Origin: Sphingomonadales bacterium
GTDB taxonomy: Bacteria; Pseudomonadota; Alphaproteobacteria; Sphingomonadales; Sphingomonadaceae
Reading direction: 5' to 3'
Length of the DNA stretch: 64,000 nt
Assembly (NCBI GenBank): GCA_013297725.1
Contig: JAAFIB010000004.1
Coordinates: 1-64,000, forward strand
Shown: piece by piece, positions 20,272 through 26,346 of the stretch
Numbering within the stretch: position 1 is the stretch's first letter
Layout: each line of letters opens with the position of its first letter
Program-made: the position numbers and the translations under genes
Notes under the pieces: generated by a model
The model's input: only the letters and a program-made list of their open reading frames with translations
Databases searched by the model: none
What the model was told of the DNA's origin: nothing

Positions 20272-20658
20272 TTACCAAATTCGCTGAATGTCGAATTCGT
20301 CAAATATCTTTTCATTTGATATCAGAGGTATGTTTCCGATTTTTGCTTGAGCAATGAGCAGTCGGTCAAATGGATCTTTATGATCGATCGTTAGTTTCCC
20401 GGCGAGTTCGGCATGCGCGATCGTGATCGATAACTCGACGAAGTTGTCGAAAGCAATTTCAACAGCGAAACGGTTCGCCAAAATTTCGGCATGCGGTAAT
20501 TTACCCAAACGAAACTTGGTTGTGATTTCCATCGCTGAAACAGCACTAACAAGGATTGTGTTGTTATTGTCTTCAATAATGTCATGGGCGGCCTTACCGA
20601 GCTTGTCCGGATCAGTAGACCACCAAAGCAGAGCATGCGTGTCGAGAAGGTATGTCAA
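20272..20658 (-). CDS. PIN-domain toxin of a type II TA pair (VapC-like)
   Basis: 128 residues of PIN fold: D6 in YLLDTHALLWW, E44 in SAVSAMEITTK, and D95/D98 in HKDPFDRLLIAQA are the expected acidic metal ligands; the fourth position reads ISNE instead of the more usual Asp. PIN toxins cleave RNA. The start codon is TTG, overlapping the antitoxin stop in TTGA, which fits translational coupling that keeps toxin output below antitoxin output. Confidence 0.9.
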   Translation of the reverse strand: MTYLLDTHALLWWSTDPDKLGKAAHDIIEDNNNTILVSAVSAMEITTKFRLGKLPHAEILANRFAVEIAFDNFVELSITIAHAELAGKLTIDHKDPFDRLLIAQAKIGNIPLISNEKIFDEFDIQRIW

Positions 20659-20903
20659 TCCTTTTCGCCGTTCCAGCGATCAAGCTCTTCGGGTGGTAGG
20701 GGTTCAAAAAAGCGCTCGTCTATCGCAACAAGGCCTTTCAAGCGGCCGGGAACACGACGCGCATGTTTATTGACCTCGGCAATGGGAACGAGCCGCGCCA
20801 CTGGCTCTTTCCCACGCGCAATAACGACATCGCCCCCCGCCAAAACCTCGGCGATAAGCTTCGACAAATTCGTTTTGGCTTCGTGGACAGTAACTGTAGT
20901 CAT
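20655..20903 (-). CDS. Phd/YefM-family antitoxin
   Basis: 82 residues. The N-terminal part MTTVTVHEAKTNLSKLIAEV followed by AGGDVVIARGKEPVARLVPI is the Phd/YefM DNA-binding fold; the C-terminal ~30 residues (RFFEPLPPEELDRWNGEKD) should wrap the toxin. It precedes and overlaps the PIN toxin. Two palindromic sites directly upstream are probable operators for autoregulation. Confidence 0.9.
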   Translation of the reverse strand: MTTVTVHEAKTNLSKLIAEVLAGGDVVIARGKEPVARLVPIAEVNKHARRVPGRLKGLVAIDERFFEPLPPEELDRWNGEKD

Positions 20904-20933: not shown

Positions 20934-22763
20934 TCAAGCCGCCTTCTTACGCGACGCCTTTTTCCGCTCGTTTGGATCAAGCAATGCTTTGCGAATACGG
21001 ATGTTCTTGGGCGTTACCTCGACCATTTCGTCGTCGTCGATATAGGCGATGGCTTGTTCCAGCGTCATGACTTTTGGCGGGGTCAGGCGGATGGCGTCGT
21101 CTTTGCCGGTCGAGCGGAAGTTGGTGAGCTGCTTCGACTTCATCGGGTTAACTTCAAGGTCTTCGGGCTTAGCGTTTTCGCCGATGATCATGCCTTCGTA
21201 CAGCGCCTCACCGGGGGAGACGAACAAGATGCCGCGCTCTTCCAAGGGGCCAAGGGCATAGGCCACTGCTTCGCCATTGCCGTTGGAGATCAGCACGCCG
21301 CATTTGCGACCTTCAATCGGACCGCGATGCGGGCCGTATTTTTCAAACAGGCGGTTCATGATTCCGGTGCCGCGCGTGTCGGACAGGAATTCGCCATGAT
21401 AACCGATCAGGCCGCGTGATGGGGCCGAGAAGGTAATCCGTGTTTTGCCGCCACCCGATGGCCGCATATCGGTCATCTCGCCTTTGCGCAGCGCCATTTT
21501 TTCAACAACAGTGCCCGAATGTTCGTCATCAACGTCGATCACGACCTGCTCATAGGGTTCGGTGCGGTTGCCGTTATCGTCTTCACGATACAGCACGCGG
21601 GGACGCGAAATGCCCAATTCAAAACCTTCGCGGCGCATTGTTTCGATCAATACGCCCAGCTGAAGCTCGCCGCGCCCGGCAACGTCAAAGCTATCGCGGT
21701 CATCGGATTCGGTAACGCGGATGGCAACGTTGCTCTCTGCTTCACGCAGCAAACGGTCGCGGATCATGCGGCTGGTAACTTTGGTGCCTTCGCGGCCTGC
21801 CATTGGCGAATCGTTCACCGAGAAACGCATCGACAATGTTGGTGGATCAATCGGCTGCGCATGCAAAGGCTCGCTGACCGCCGGATCGGCGATGGTATCG
21901 GCGACGGTTGCGGTGGTCAGGCCGGCGATGGAGATGATGTCGCCCGCTTTGGCTTCGTCAACCGGCACGCGTTCAAGGCCGCGGAATGACATGATTTTTG
22001 ATGCACGGCCGGTTTCAACGACTTTGCCATCGGGCGAAAGCGCGTGGATTTGTTGGTTCACCTTAACTGTGCCCGACAGGACAAGGCCGGTCAGGATACG
22101 GCCAAGGAAATTGTCGCGATCAAGCAACGTCACGAGCATCTTAAACTCGCCGTCAACATCGGCTTTTGGTTCTTTCACGTGGCGGACGATGGTTTCGAAC
22201 ATCGGCGTCAAAGTGCCCTCGCGGCGTGCAGGGTCTTCCGATGCATAACCATTACGGCCCGATGCATAAAGCACAGGGAAATCAAGCTGTTCGTCAGTTG
22301 CGTCGAGTGAAACGAAAAGGTCGAACACTTCGTCGAGCACTTCCTGAATACGCTCATCAGGGCGATCGACCTTGTTGACGACAACGATAGGACGCAGGCC
22401 AAGTGCCAACGCTTTGCCGGTCACAAACTTGGTTTGCGGCATCGCGCCTTCGGACGAATCGACCAGCAGGATAACGCCGTCAACCATCGACAAAATACGT
22501 TCAACTTCGCCGCCAAAATCGGCGTGTCCGGGAGTATCAACGATGTTAATCCGTGTGGTTTCGTTTTCTCCAGTCCACTCGACGCTGGTGCATTTCGCCA
22601 GAATCGTAATCCCGCGTTCCTTTTCCAGATCGTTGGAATCCATGGCGCGTTCTTCGATCCGCTGGTTCTCGCGGAACGTGCCAGATTGGCGGAAAAGCTG
22701 GTCAACAAGGGTGGTTTTGCCATGATCGACGTGCGCGATGATGGCGATGTTACGCAGGGACAT
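20934..22763 (-). CDS. typA: Translational GTPase TypA/BipA
   Basis: 609 residues, normal for the family. G-domain motifs are complete: [15 protein letters not shown] (P-loop), [18 protein letters not shown] and [10 protein letters not shown]. Domain II, III and V features and the specific C-terminal domain with [20 protein letters not shown] follow, with a basic tail ([10 protein letters not shown]). It acts on the ribosome under stress and in 50S assembly. It starts 54 bases downstream of the M15 gene on the same strand; a 16-base palindrome (22787-22802) lies in that gap. Confidence 0.97.
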
Positions 22764-22817: not shown

Positions 22818-23444
22818 TTAGCGATTTTTTCGCTGCGGCGCAACAAAGGACGCACATGGCGACGTCGAGGCGGTGTGATCATGCCCCCAGCGCCGATAGC
22901 CCGCGGTGTCGATGTGAAAGCGCGTGCCGCTATATATGCCTAGCCCGATATTCAGCGCCCTGCCTTTGCTTGCATGCAGCGCACAGAGTTTTTCGATGAG
23001 TTCAGCGCGTGAGACTTTCTTGACCGGCTTCATATCAATGGCTAGAAATTGCAGATGATAGCTGCGAGTTGCGCCTTTGGTACACTGGTTCATGATCGGG
23101 TTGCGATAGACAGAAAGTGCCTCAACCGGGCCGATGAGTGGCTGCACCTCGTCGCGGATTACTTGCAGTGTTGTGACCATGTTCGACCAAAGCGTTTTGG
23201 GCGGGACGTCATACGGTTCAGCGTCACATTTGCGCCATTGGGTGTCACTTCGTAGAAGTTGGCGGATCGGGATGACTTCTTCTACGCTTTGGCTGCTCAG
23301 ATAGTTCTGCAACGCCGCCGCTTCGGCTTTATTGGCACCTTGTTGTCGCCATTGTTCGAAACGCTCGCTATCCCCGCCCAGGTTTTCGCCGTTACAGGCA
23401 GCCAGCAAAGCTAGTGTTGATAGAATAGCGACATTAAGGCGCAT
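22818..23444 (-). CDS. M15-type peptidase-like lipoprotein
   Basis: 208 residues. The N-terminus is a lipoprotein signal ending in LALLAAC. The C-terminal half carries the zinc pattern of M15/YcbK-like DD-carboxypeptidases: YRNPIMNQCTKGATRSYHLQ with FLAIDMKP (His and Asp ligands) and GTRFHIDTAGYRRWG (second His). It probably acts on peptidoglycan peptides, from the inner or outer membrane. The ATG at 23444 begins the signal; longer forms have no signal. It starts four bases after the cytochrome-like gene stop, so it is the third gene of a tight operon. Confidence 0.82.
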   Translation of the reverse strand: MRLNVAILSTLALLAACNGENLGGDSERFEQWRQQGANKAEAAALQNYLSSQSVEEVIPIRQLLRSDTQWRKCDAEPYDVPPKTLWSNMVTTLQVIRDEVQPLIGPVEALSVYRNPIMNQCTKGATRSYHLQFLAIDMKPVKKVSRAELIEKLCALHASKGRALNIGLGIYSGTRFHIDTAGYRRWGHDHTASTSPCASFVAPQRKNR

Positions 23445-23448
23445 GGTT

Positions 23449-24363
23449 TCAGCGCGTATTTCCCGCAGCAGCGATTTTAAAATTCGCGGGATTATAAAGC
23501 GATTGTTGCTCTGTCTGCCTAAGGATATCAGCGACATCGTCATCAAAGCGCAGTTTCCAATCAGCGACAGCTTTGCCAAAATCTTCAGGAGAACCCCGGT
23601 GCACCATCAGCCGGGCCAAACTGCGAGACTTGTTCAGCAGTAAGGATCGTTGGCGCTTGAAACGCGATCCTGTGTAACGCTCTGATATCAAGGCCAGTTG
23701 ATGTCGCGCCGCTGCCAGTAGCAATTCTGTGCTCACCCAGTCGCCGGTATCCGCCATATTTTCGGCGCCCGTCAACGCGCCTTTAAGCATAAAGAGCTGA
23801 TCGGATAATTTGCGCGGGTTTGTTACCTTGTCCTCATCCACATACGCGCAGCCGTTAATTCCGCGGACATAGGCGGCCAATATCTTTAATGTGGCGGATT
23901 GGGGTTCATTCCCGCCAAACTCATTGACGATCAAGTTGCGGATGAAGGTTTCTAGCGCCTCTGAATCCCTGGGTATTTTGCCCGGCTTTGCAAGATCAGG
24001 GATCACCACCGGATCAAATTTTCCGTTACCACGCGCGGCGCTAAAGAAACTGCTGGTGACGTCTGCGGTTCCCGGCTGGTCCGACACACCCCGCATAAAG
24101 AAATGCGTATTACCTCTGCCATTCACATGACAACTGGCGCAGTTAAGTCCGGCCTTTGCAGCCTGTCCGCCCAGAAGGGCAGGGCTGTTGAACAAGGCTT
24201 GTCCGGCTAGCACGTTAGCTTCCTCTGGCAACGGATAGAACATGCAAACCTGCGGCTGGCTGGATAAAGCCTCCAGCTCTGCTCCGGTTGCGGTCCAGCG
24301 CAATAATTCCAGCTGCTGAAGTGCTGCTGCAGAAACAACGGCACTCCCAAAGAATAGCAGCAA
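23449..24363 (-). CDS. Exported monoheme cytochrome c-like protein
   Basis: 304 residues with one heme-binding motif CASCH (residues 75-79) in KAGLNCASCHVNGRG, preceded by ANVLAGQALFNSPALLGG, which recalls the N-terminal cytochrome domain of di-heme peroxidase-like proteins. No second CxxCH is present, and the C-terminal ~120 residues are helical and unassigned. The only standard start codon in frame is TTG at 24363, giving a hydrophobic leader without the usual basic residues; reading upstream in frame adds AIRKLSAA, a better signal peptide but without a normal start codon. It follows the TPR gene by eight bases. Confidence 0.7.
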   Translation of the reverse strand: MLLFFGSAVVSAAALQQLELLRWTATGAELEALSSQPQVCMFYPLPEEANVLAGQALFNSPALLGGQAAKAGLNCASCHVNGRGNTHFFMRGVSDQPGTADVTSSFFSAARGNGKFDPVVIPDLAKPGKIPRDSEALETFIRNLIVNEFGGNEPQSATLKILAAYVRGINGCAYVDEDKVTNPRKLSDQLFMLKGALTGAENMADTGDWVSTELLLAAARHQLALISERYTGSRFKRQRSLLLNKSRSLARLMVHRGSPEDFGKAVADWKLRFDDDVADILRQTEQQSLYNPANFKIAAAGNTR

Positions 24364-24371
24364 GGCTGCAC

Positions 24372-25322
24372 TCAGCTTGCGGATGGCGCTTTCTCCGTTA
24401 TCCCCGCTTTTGTAATCAAACGCCGCAGCTCATCAGCCTCGTTACAGCCAAAGCCGCAAATCGCCTCAAGTTTTGCCAGATGCGACTTTGCGCCCGACAC
24501 ATCGCCGCGCTCCAGCTTTAACTCGCCATAATATTCCAGCGCACCCCGGTGTTTTGGCGATACTTGCAGCGCCGCTTGGTAATAGCCCTCTGCAATGTCA
24601 AAGCGTTCCAGCTTGCGATTGGCGAAACCCAGATAGGTCAGAATATCAGGATGCGGTCCGGCGGCCCAGCGCGCTTCGTTCAGGAACGTAATCGCGTCTT
24701 CGTACCGCTTTTCATTGATCAGGCTGACGGCGGTAACATAAGTTTCATCTGCCGCTTTGGCCTCGGCGATCTGGATGTCGGGAACAGCGATTGATGCTTG
24801 TTTCCCGCCCGATATCGCCGCCTCTACCTTTGCCACTGCATCGGCAAGCTTTGCTGCATCGGCACATTTGGCGGTATCGCATGTGCCCTTTTGCATTTTT
24901 AGCGCAGAGAGCTGCTCGCCCGCTTTCGCTGTTTGGCCAAGCTTTGCCTGCACAATGCCCAGATCTCGCAGCGCCTCTATCATCTTGCCGTTATATTTTA
25001 CTGCAAGCCCCAGCGACTTTGCCGCCTTTTTATTGTCGCCCATCCCCATATAGGATGCGCCGAGCAAATACTGCGCCGCGGCATCTTTCGGCAACGCACC
25101 GACCACTTTTTTGAAATGGTTGACGGCTGCTTTATAGTCGCCGGCGCGATAGGCCGTTGTGCCCTTTTGATAATCCATTGCTGGATCATAGGCTTTGGCC
25201 GAAGTGCTTGGCGATCCACCGCCGCCACCACCACCGCCGCCTGCCGCAAAAACGGGCGTCAGCATTAATAGGCCAAGCGCTGCAGTAGATGCCAGCAACA
25301 CGCGATTAGTTCTTTGCGTCAT
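24372..25322 (-). CDS. Exported TPR protein with poly-glycine linker
   Basis: 316 residues. A signal peptide (MTQRTNRVLLASTAALGLLM..FAA) is followed directly by nine glycines, then TPR repeats: YQKGTTAYRAGDYKAAVNHF, AAQYLLGASYMGMGDNKKAA, and a C-terminal set with PDILTYLGFANRKLERFDIA and YYGELKLERGDVSGA. Paired Cys occur in GTCDTAKC and ICGFGC. The ATG at 25322 has GAGAGGA upstream; the frame extends to 25382 without gain. TPR proteins usually bind partner proteins, so it may scaffold the cytochrome-like and M15-like products encoded behind it. Confidence 0.85.
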   Translation of the reverse strand: MTQRTNRVLLASTAALGLLMLTPVFAAGGGGGGGGGSPSTSAKAYDPAMDYQKGTTAYRAGDYKAAVNHFKKVVGALPKDAAAQYLLGASYMGMGDNKKAAKSLGLAVKYNGKMIEALRDLGIVQAKLGQTAKAGEQLSALKMQKGTCDTAKCADAAKLADAVAKVEAAISGGKQASIAVPDIQIAEAKAADETYVTAVSLINEKRYEDAITFLNEARWAAGPHPDILTYLGFANRKLERFDIAEGYYQAALQVSPKHRGALEYYGELKLERGDVSGAKSHLAKLEAICGFGCNEADELRRLITKAGITEKAPSAS

Positions 25323-25434: not shown

Positions 25435-26346
25435 ATGTTTTTGCGCCTTATCCCAGATCGATTTGTTCTGATGCTTTTGGGCGCAATTCTATTAGGCTGG
25501 CTGCTGCCTGTTCACGGACGAGGGCTAACAGTCGCGCAGAATGTCAGCTTCATAAGCATCTTTGCGCTGTTTTTTCTGCACGGATTGCGGTTGCCTCGCC
25601 AAGAAGTTGTGAAGGCGGCGAAGGCGATGAAGATGCAGAGCGCAATGCTTGGCTTTACCTTTATTGCGATGCCGCTTGCGGGAATTGCTTTGGCTTATGG
25701 GTTTGGTTGGATGTTGCCAGCAGGGTTGCTGACCGGGCTAATCTATTGCGCGATGCTGCCCTCCACTGTGCAGTCGGCAATAAGCTATTCGTCATTGGCT
25801 GGCGGCAATGTCGCGGCTTCGGTCGTCGGGGCTGCGGTGTCCAATCTGGCCGGGATTATCCTGACGCCTTTGCTGGTCGCGCTGGGCATTGGTGCAGCAT
25901 CCGGTGTCGAGATTGGCGGCGATACCATATTGCGCATTGCCACGATGTTGTTGTTGCCGTTCGCTTTGGGGCAGGCGGTGCAAACATGGTTGGGCGAATG
26001 GGCGCTGCGGCAAAAAGCGATGCTCTCTTTCTTTGACCGTCAGGTGATCTTGATTGCAGTCTATGTCGCCTTTGCAGGGGCTGTCAGCTCGGGGAATCTC
26101 TCTGTGTTGGATGGTCGTGACCTGCTGGTTTTAAGCGTAGTTTTGGCTTTGCTGCTGGCGTTCGCATTCGCCGGTGCATGGGGCTTTGGTGAGGTACTAA
26201 GATTGGATCGCGCCGACCGGATCAGTCTGGTCTTTGCTAGCGCGCATAAAAGCATTGCGACCGGGGCACCGATGGCGGCGATCTTGTTTGGCAGTGCTGC
26301 TGGTCTAATCCTGTTGCCCGCATCCTGTATCACATGGCGCAGTTGA
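25435..26346 (+). CDS. SBF-like (YfeH-type) transporter, frameshifted at its 3' end
   Basis: 303 residues with about nine membrane helices and the pattern AMLPSTVQSAISYSSLAGGN and SLVFASAHKSIATGAPMAAI of the bile-acid:sodium symporter-like family (E. coli YfeH group). The frame breaks at about 26320: it continues as LLPASCITWRS and stops, while the frame starting at 26322 encodes ILYHMAQLIISAPIAARLAK and stops at 26390, which is exactly the expected family C-terminus. One missing base explains this. The product lacks the second half of its last helix, or the base is a sequencing error. Restored length would be about 317 residues. The restored gene would overlap the convergent ABC permease by 14 bases. 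Confidence 0.85.
   Translation: MFLRLIPDRFVLMLLGAILLGWLLPVHGRGLTVAQNVSFISIFALFFLHGLRLPRQEVVKAAKAMKMQSAMLGFTFIAMPLAGIALAYGFGWMLPAGLLTGLIYCAMLPSTVQSAISYSSLAGGNVAASVVGAAVSNLAGIILTPLLVALGIGAASGVEIGGDTILRIATMLLLPFALGQAVQTWLGEWALRQKAMLSFFDRQVILIAVYVAFAGAVSSGNLSVLDGRDLLVLSVVLALLLAFAFAGAWGFGEVLRLDRADRISLVFASAHKSIATGAPMAAILFGSAAGLILLPASCITWRS

Follow-up and report, generated by a model that had tools for sequence, protein, structure and literature searches.

A conserved TPR-cytochrome gene pair of sphingomonads and the apparent AUC start of its cytochrome gene

The window analysed here is a stretch of 64,000 nucleotides from a Sphingomonadales bacterium (assembly GCA_013297725.1, contig JAAFIB010000004.1, positions 1 to 64,000), and the subject is a group of three open reading frames (ORFs) found on one strand, the minus strand, between 22818 and 25322. 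They encode a tetratricopeptide repeat (TPR) protein, a protein with one c-type haem motif and a lipoprotein resembling M15 peptidases, and a first-pass annotation had read them as a single operon for exported proteins. The three frames are real; the first two genes form a conserved overlapping pair, within which the cytochrome gene appears, as judged from its sequence and that of its relatives, to start at ATC (AUC in the messenger). The features concerned are as follows.

24372..25322, minus strand: TPR protein gene, 316 amino acids, with an ATG start, a signal peptide-like start, a Gly-rich N-terminus and a C-terminal CxFGC
25215..25241, minus strand: nine-Gly run (residues 28-36), just past the predicted signal peptide of the TPR protein
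23449..24384, minus strand: one-haem cytochrome gene in the ATC reading, 311 amino acids, with a 13-base overlap with the TPR gene
24382..24384, minus strand: proposed ATC start codon of the cytochrome gene
24393..24396, minus strand: GGAG core of a Shine-Dalgarno site, 8 bases 5' of the ATC (best hexamer -6.6 kcal)
24127..24141, minus strand: single CASCH haem-binding motif, both Cys and the His being invariant in 63/63 aligned rows
22818..23444, minus strand: M15_3-like lipoprotein gene, 208 amino acids, a neighbour outside the conserved module
20934..22763, minus strand: gene for a putative typA/bipA-like GTPase; left border of the pair's site
25435..26346, plus strand: SBF-like transporter gene; right border of the pair's site

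The properties assigned to the first two proteins by the first-pass annotation have been borne out. The TPR protein scores 57.9 bits against the Pfam TPR_2 cut-off of 27 (E 4.9e-16), and its nine glycines lie behind a signal peptide-like start, as had been described. Among 90 distinct TPR rows, the motif C.[FYW]GC is found within the last 60 residues in 90/90, and runs of at least four glycines occur in 73/90 (140 residues scanned); the other 17 include interrupted Gly/Ser stretches, cut genes and ORF segments exceeding the 140 residues scanned. The second protein contains exactly one CxxCH, the CASCH already noted.

Comparison shows that the TPR gene and the cytochrome gene belong together as a conserved pair, pointing the same way and overlapping. 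Among named genomes a scan brought up 151 relatives of the cytochrome, and in the best 80 of the 151, kept for locus counts, a TPR sequence lies directly upstream in the same direction in 80/80, in 79 as an overlapping open frame and in one (L058) as a fusion; the TPR frame runs to the contig end in L038, L082 and L104. In a set of 61 genomes (the own genome, 36 of the genus and 24 of the order), the cytochrome is present in 12 and the TPR protein (E <= 1e-20) in 11, the 11 being common to both, while the twelfth cytochrome match (G048) is a weak fragment (E 9e-10) on a 3.4-kb contig. More widely, the cytochrome was found in 26/397 genomes of the family and in 10/45 of the genus, and the overlap frame is identical in 88/90 distinct pairs. 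Thus, of the conserved co-occurrence of three families that the first-pass annotation had proposed to look for, the part concerning the TPR protein and the cytochrome holds and the part concerning the M15 gene does not. No publication on the TPR-cytochrome pair was found by title or abstract in the open-licence PMC literature, and the pair marks out a TPR-cytochrome module that has no name yet and has its kin among MauG/peroxidase-like proteins.

The site occupied by the pair could also be followed in genomes devoid of it. The identity of the right-hand border gene comes from Pfam SBF_like on its counterpart in L068 (4868-5827), and this gene was located in 11 genus genomes without the pair, seven of which were read. 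In 7/7 of these typA directly adjoins the SBF-like gene, the two being about 100-160 bases apart, and no match to any of the three proteins (TPR, cytochrome, M15) occurs, so that the pair was gained at, or lost from, a fixed site. On the other side of typA, window positions 20272-20903 hold what looks from the sequence like a toxin-antitoxin pair, presumably a PIN-like toxin and a Phd/RelB-like antitoxin. A third conserved partner gene was sought by clustering the neighbours of the 80 loci and the genus relatives, and the synteny found was confined to groups of related genomes. In a cluster of six loci an MsrA-type gene (PF01625, tested on the L113 copy) stands divergently beside the pair, and in three low-GC Sphingorhabdus (L033, L034, L035) the pair is followed by a gene for a chemoreceptor-like protein, recognised by eye, of 585 or 586 amino acids. 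Moreover, a contig labelled as a Pseudanabaena plasmid bears a pair which, in the overlap region, is much like that of Sandarakinorhabdus rubra (L095 and L110); it is perhaps a contaminating contig.

The third gene has a different history. Its product, described earlier as a zinc-peptidase-like lipoprotein, deserves that description, with a LAAC lipobox, the zinc-type motifs SxHx6D and HxD, and a Peptidase_M15_3 score of 24.9 bits against the Pfam cut-off of 23.2; it shares this above-cut-off score and these motifs with the MepK/Peptidase M15_3 group, but lies far under the MepK equivalog cut-off (19.1 vs 185), and a PDB sequence search with it returned nothing at E up to 1. The four-base gap reported between the cytochrome and M15 genes is also correct (the cytochrome stop ends at 23449 and the M15 ATG is at 23444), and co-transcription of the two in this genome is likely. 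This closeness is what favours the earlier idea of one three-gene operon tying periplasmic redox chemistry to peptidoglycan trimming. Against it, no strong M15 match was found in 60 relatives, the two weak ones having E 2.5e-4 and 4e-4, and an M15 relative stands near the pair in only 1/80 kept loci (L066), about 4 kb upstream and beside unrelated genes rather than adjacent. Furthermore, the two sets of genomes scarcely overlap: M15 relatives (E <= 1e-20) occur in 33/298 family genomes, and only the own genome and G091, in which the M15 and cytochrome genes are about 386 kb apart, figure in both the M15 list (33) and the cytochrome list (26). The M15 gene does not belong to the conserved pair. 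It is found apart in relatives, which is what the first-pass annotation had itself set against its proposal; the three genes do not behave as one system, the link between redox chemistry and peptidoglycan is left without support, and the three-gene operon as a functional unit is scarcely credible.

The start of the cytochrome gene in this genome is not the obvious one. No in-frame ATG, GTG or TTG exists between the upstream stop and a TTG at 24363, and from this TTG the protein would have an N-terminus without positive charge behind a best Shine-Dalgarno energy of -2.2 kcal. An in-frame ATC at 24384 has a GGAG 8 bases upstream (-6.6 kcal), and the protein read from it begins MRKLSAALLLFFGSAVVSA. 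The eight-base gap formerly placed between the TPR and cytochrome genes depends on the TTG and disappears when the ATC is taken, the genes then overlapping by 13 bases. Five members of the genus (L027-L031) have ATC at the same place, one of them (L030) with a TAA just ahead of the new Shine-Dalgarno site, and four low-GC members (L032-L035) have retained a GTG or TTG further upstream. No work on this gene or on sphingomonad AUC starts was found among the matches listed from the open-licence PMC literature.

A comparison of overlaps gives this observation its weight. From 112 loci considered, 90 distinct overlaps remained once the L058 fusion and duplicates had been dropped, and two (L036 and L129, with another frame offset) were excluded from the analyses of 88 pairs. 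With the canonical group defined by an ATG, GTG or TTG from 14 codons upstream to 2 downstream of the TPR stop, 57/90 overlaps have such a start and 33/90 lack it. Thirty of these 33 have ATC (28), ATT (1) or ATA (1), collectively ATH, at one fixed codon, compared with 8 of the 57; for the 88 pairs in the common frame the figures are 30/33 vs 7/55 (Fisher 1.3e-13, uncorrected for descent), the fixed codon being seldom of Ile type where a canonical start is used. The old start overlaps a conserved Arg-Trp pair of the TPR gene (cgN TGG), and the codon at the old position is TTG (25), GTG (18), ATG (9) or CTG (2) in the canonical group (n=55), with one member lacking the Trp codon, and CTG (28) or none (5) in the non-canonical group (n=33); nothing remains of the old codon in the window or in L030, L056 and L074, all of which keep the ATC. 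The Shine-Dalgarno medians of the canonical group are -7.5 kcal at the old start (spacing mostly 9 or 7) and -3.1 before the fixed codon, and the non-canonical group has a median of -5.9 kcal ahead of the fixed codon, with 6 or 7 bases as the usual spacing.

In the TPR frame the first base of the ATC falls on a wobble position, and in the non-canonical group this base is A in 30/33 overlaps against 3.4 expected from the third-position A content (A3) of the same genes. This is the unconditioned figure, the 31/31 of the set of 31 members selected for ATH being true by construction. In these 31 members the TPR codon concerned encodes six amino acids (Ser, Pro, Ala, Thr, Lys, Gln), the first eight residues from the ATH have a net charge of +1 or +2 in 31/31, and the median Shine-Dalgarno energy is -6.4 kcal at the ATH vs -1.7 at the next canonical codon, which 29 of the 31 possess within 40 codons. 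Roughly 30 genomes, from no fewer than three named genera of sphingomonads, have kept the ATC, and the best start of the cytochrome, here and in about 30 relatives, appears to be this codon.

The constancy of the overlap frame (88/90 pairs) and the existence of one in-frame fusion could also be read as signs that ribosomes shift frame in a programmed way where the TPR gene ends and make a TPR-cytochrome fusion, for which a separate start would be unimportant. The fusion (L058:6281-7858, from a Novosphingobium metagenome assembly) has lost the C-terminal end of the TPR protein, the overlap and the signal peptide of the cytochrome, and a 9-base repeat lies close to its junction; it could be an artefact of assembly and, if real, implies that both mature parts function in one compartment. 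Elsewhere a charged n-region and, nearly always, a hydrophobic core follow the site, so that a fused product would place the haem domain on the wrong side of the membrane, and it is exactly this segment that L058 has lost. Besides, no slippery heptamer was seen by eye before the TPR stop in the overlap sequences, no dedicated test having been run, and frameshifting is considered very improbable.

Starts of this kind are best understood by reference to known systems. In the excerpts used here of two papers, few genes are described as experimentally known to start with codons other than ATG, GTG or TTG, infC starting with ATT in E. coli and with ATC in Streptomyces, sigR starting with GTC under repression by initiation factor 3 (IF3), and both being regulated via that codon (PMC5472188); overlapping co-directional genes, for their part, often encode subunits of one complex (PMC10666635). 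Of seven infC loci of Sphingorhabdus, six were read (all save L192). The own-genome infC (L191), which served as a positive control, has no ATG, GTG or TTG before the IF3 domain and shows a GGAG-N8-ATC layout, which is repeated in four others of the genus (L187-L190), together with an ATG further down, and L193 has ATT-ATC after its GGAG site; infC of these genomes thus appears to start with ATC, or with ATT-ATC in L193, after GGAG. The cytochrome gene shares with infC the rare AUH start, the Shine-Dalgarno site and, as in its own infC, the GGAG-N8-ATC layout, but infC encodes a self-controlling translation factor, and the gene considered here encodes an exported haem protein and is the downstream member of an overlapping pair. 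With Streptomyces sigR, as far as the excerpt describes it, it shares a non-canonical start in an overlapping pair, misannotation in databases and a ratio of two partners at stake; there, however, a GTC opens the upstream gene and IF3 repression is experimental, whereas here the downstream gene is concerned and its start is proposed from sequence (PMC5472188). The coupled overlapping pairs for complex subunits, as presented in the other excerpt, are likewise co-directional and overlapping, with products that are likely partners, the differences being that the overlap here is at least 13 bases, the start non-canonical and the coupling presumptive (PMC10666635).

As regards the cytochrome itself, sequence searches have been of little help. 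Nothing exceeded the Pfam cut-offs (CCP_MauG, E 0.24, 12.5 vs 25.6 bits; Cytochrome_CBB3, E 0.12), and a PDB sequence search returned nothing at E up to 1. By its CxxCH and its signal peptide-like N-terminus the protein nevertheless qualifies as a putative exported c-type cytochrome. In 63 aligned cytochromes, all of which have CxxCH (63/63), W30, C82, C85, H86, D108, E155, R227 and R236 are invariant. Counted within 4 columns, C47 and C179 occur together in 49 rows and are missing together in 12, 2 rows being discordant, as expected for a disulfide, and a C47-C179 bond is probable from this alignment. The model has a mean predicted local distance difference test score (pLDDT) of 92.5 and comprises two parts, the haem domain and, at the C-terminus (about residues 191-293), a bundle of four helices, the latter filling the whole-model fold search with functionally uninformative matches (cytochrome b562-like, designed proteins, FliS). 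When the haem domain was modelled alone (pLDDT 91.9), its fold matches, none of them significant by Foldseek, were MauG-like, peroxidase, hydrazine synthase and thiosulfate dehydrogenase cytochromes. With VIA-align the 50 rows listed, at Z 5.0 to 7.9, were all c-type cytochromes or complexes containing one, among them hydrazine synthase 5c2v_C (Z 7.9, 3.6 A, 106 residues) and MauG 3sle_A, to residues 6-173 of which the haem domain aligned (Z 6.7, 3.2 A, 108 residues).

Distant relatives were compared at the level of the class. A class-wide survey scored only the five best TPR candidates per genome, which makes it an unfair test of pairing, and the loci were read instead in 20 of the 27 other cytochrome-bearing class genomes. 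A second CxxCH is present in 8/20 of these relatives, and the one two-CxxCH relative scanned (L136) gave weak matches to the MauG and MbnH models. The likeness of the TPR-linked cytochrome to MauG, MbnH and bacterial cytochrome c peroxidase (CCP) lies in the alignment of the haem domain and in these two-CxxCH kin, and the difference in its single CxxCH, the lack of a second haem domain, the C-terminal four-helix bundle and the sub-cut-off CCP_MauG score; having one CxxCH only, and standing under the Pfam cut-off, it does not count as a di-haem CCP/MauG member. As modelled, the cytochrome appears to be a one-haem CCP/MauG-type domain joined to a four-helix bundle, and the TPR-linked form has the look of a branch with one haem within a MauG/MbnH-like lineage. 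In 11/20 of the distant loci (L128, L130-L132, L134, L135, L137-L139, L142, L145) a TldD relative lies upstream on the same strand, and this tldD-like neighbour is a second pairing of the cytochrome family in other alphaproteobacteria. A relative of glutamate-cysteine ligase (gshA-like) is nearby in 8/20, and cysE-like genes, too, lie close by in some of the loci with a tldD-like gene.

The cytochrome might be no more than an electron carrier, neither haem enzyme nor sensor. In favour of this are its single haem and the second-look fold matches, which include solved structures of cytochromes c6 and c549/c550 (Z 5.1-5.4). However, no His or Met column outside the CxxCH reaches 50/63 rows, so there is no obvious second iron ligand, and the relatives include two-haem proteins, of which L136 weakly matches the MauG/MbnH models. 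A carrier function is accordingly regarded as somewhat unlikely. The missing conserved second ligand and the peroxidase-like kin suggest instead an enzyme acting on the TPR protein or on a client docked to it, or a sensor of peroxide or gas. We tentatively see the complex as a haem enzyme of the periplasm, or else as a sensor that descends from peroxidases and reacts with peroxide or gas; the TPR protein would serve it as substrate or as docking partner. The chances of this reading are clearly short of even.

The explanation of the whole that is preferred here, and that is held to be fairly probable, combines a conserved pair, an AUC start replacing a lost old start, a cytochrome made at a low level coupled to its partner, and a periplasmic complex. 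The comparison strongly suggests that in Sphingopyxis, in high-GC Sphingorhabdus (this genome included) and in some other Sphingomonadaceae the old NTG start within the conserved Arg-Trp codon pair of the TPR gene has been lost and AUC has taken over. The replacement would be an AUC (rarely AUU or AUA), usually 21 bases downstream, with a well-spaced Shine-Dalgarno site of its own and still inside the end of the TPR gene. Ribosomes completing the TPR gene, or binding at the new site, would initiate the cytochrome at the AUC; such initiation is expected to be weak and IF3-sensitive, as with infC and sigR, so that the cytochrome would be made in small amounts coupled to its TPR partner. Both proteins would be exported through their own signal peptides, and the cytochrome, with its one c-type haem in a CCP/MauG-like domain, would dock on the TPR scaffold, since an overlap of the subunit type and the 80/80 loci lead one to expect that the TPR protein holds the cytochrome in the periplasm. 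A periplasmic TPR-cytochrome complex, translationally coupled and kept low by IF3-discriminated initiation, is the most likely product of the pair.

Several observations weigh against this explanation. Mapped on a tree of the 88 pairs, loss of the canonical start shows 8 changes and ATH shows 5, and the tree-controlled test of one against the other has about two informative pairs (2 for, 0 against), too few to reach significance; much of the ATH count mirrors common descent, and ATH may have arisen first and permitted the loss. Three members (L101, L108, L164) have neither a canonical start at the usual place nor a fixed codon of the ATH type; the ATC of L076 is displaced downstream by one codon, L104 possesses an ATG near the stop, six members carry both a canonical start and ATH, and the N-terminus of L158 read from ATC is no clean signal peptide. 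The wobble base is also A-rich in the canonical group (14/55 vs 6.2 expected). Outside the question of the start, the haem domain had no significant Foldseek match (E 0.06 or worse), and 19/20 of the distant loci read have no TPR neighbour. Finally, the CTG at the old position in 28/33 non-canonical overlaps has a median Shine-Dalgarno energy of -5.6 kcal, not much weaker than the -5.9 at the ATC, and could be a start too.

This last point leads to the view that the cytochrome starts at the old-position CTG, or at a downstream canonical codon, the conserved ATC being merely an Ile codon of the signal peptide. A CTG start likewise yields a signal peptide with a charged n-region. CTG, however, is what the Arg codon CGC gives by default ahead of the Trp codon once nothing holds the wobble base; genes that still use the old start mostly have T, G or A as that base, and the window and three relatives already named have no CTG there and have kept the ATC. 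The best Shine-Dalgarno spacing at the CTG is 14 in 16/28, so that CTG and ATC, at similar energies, differ in spacing and not in strength. The next downstream canonical codons have a median of only -1.7 kcal, and in several Sphingopyxis they lie 27 codons on, beyond the signal peptide. Nor is the codon held as Ile where a canonical start is used. This alternative is unlikely on balance, and initiation at the AUC is preferred to it.

It is quite possible, with chances a little short of even, that in these sphingomonads the gene of a periplasmic haem protein is under the control of IF3 fidelity through an AUC kept in about 30 genomes. On this reading an NTG start would be costly, as in the overlapping frame it calls for a TPR codon that opens with TG (Cys, Trp or stop), and evolution would have moved the Shine-Dalgarno site and the start to a near-cognate codon compatible with the overlap. 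If this were true, the redox capacity of the envelope would track the translation-initiation state of the cell. The comparison suggests that the old start was lost and replaced by AUC together with a new ribosome site inside the gene overlap. If confirmed, the pair would provide a natural experiment on the movement of start codons and a way to test IF3 control outside sigma factors and translation, and it would caution that this start will be misplaced by gene callers.

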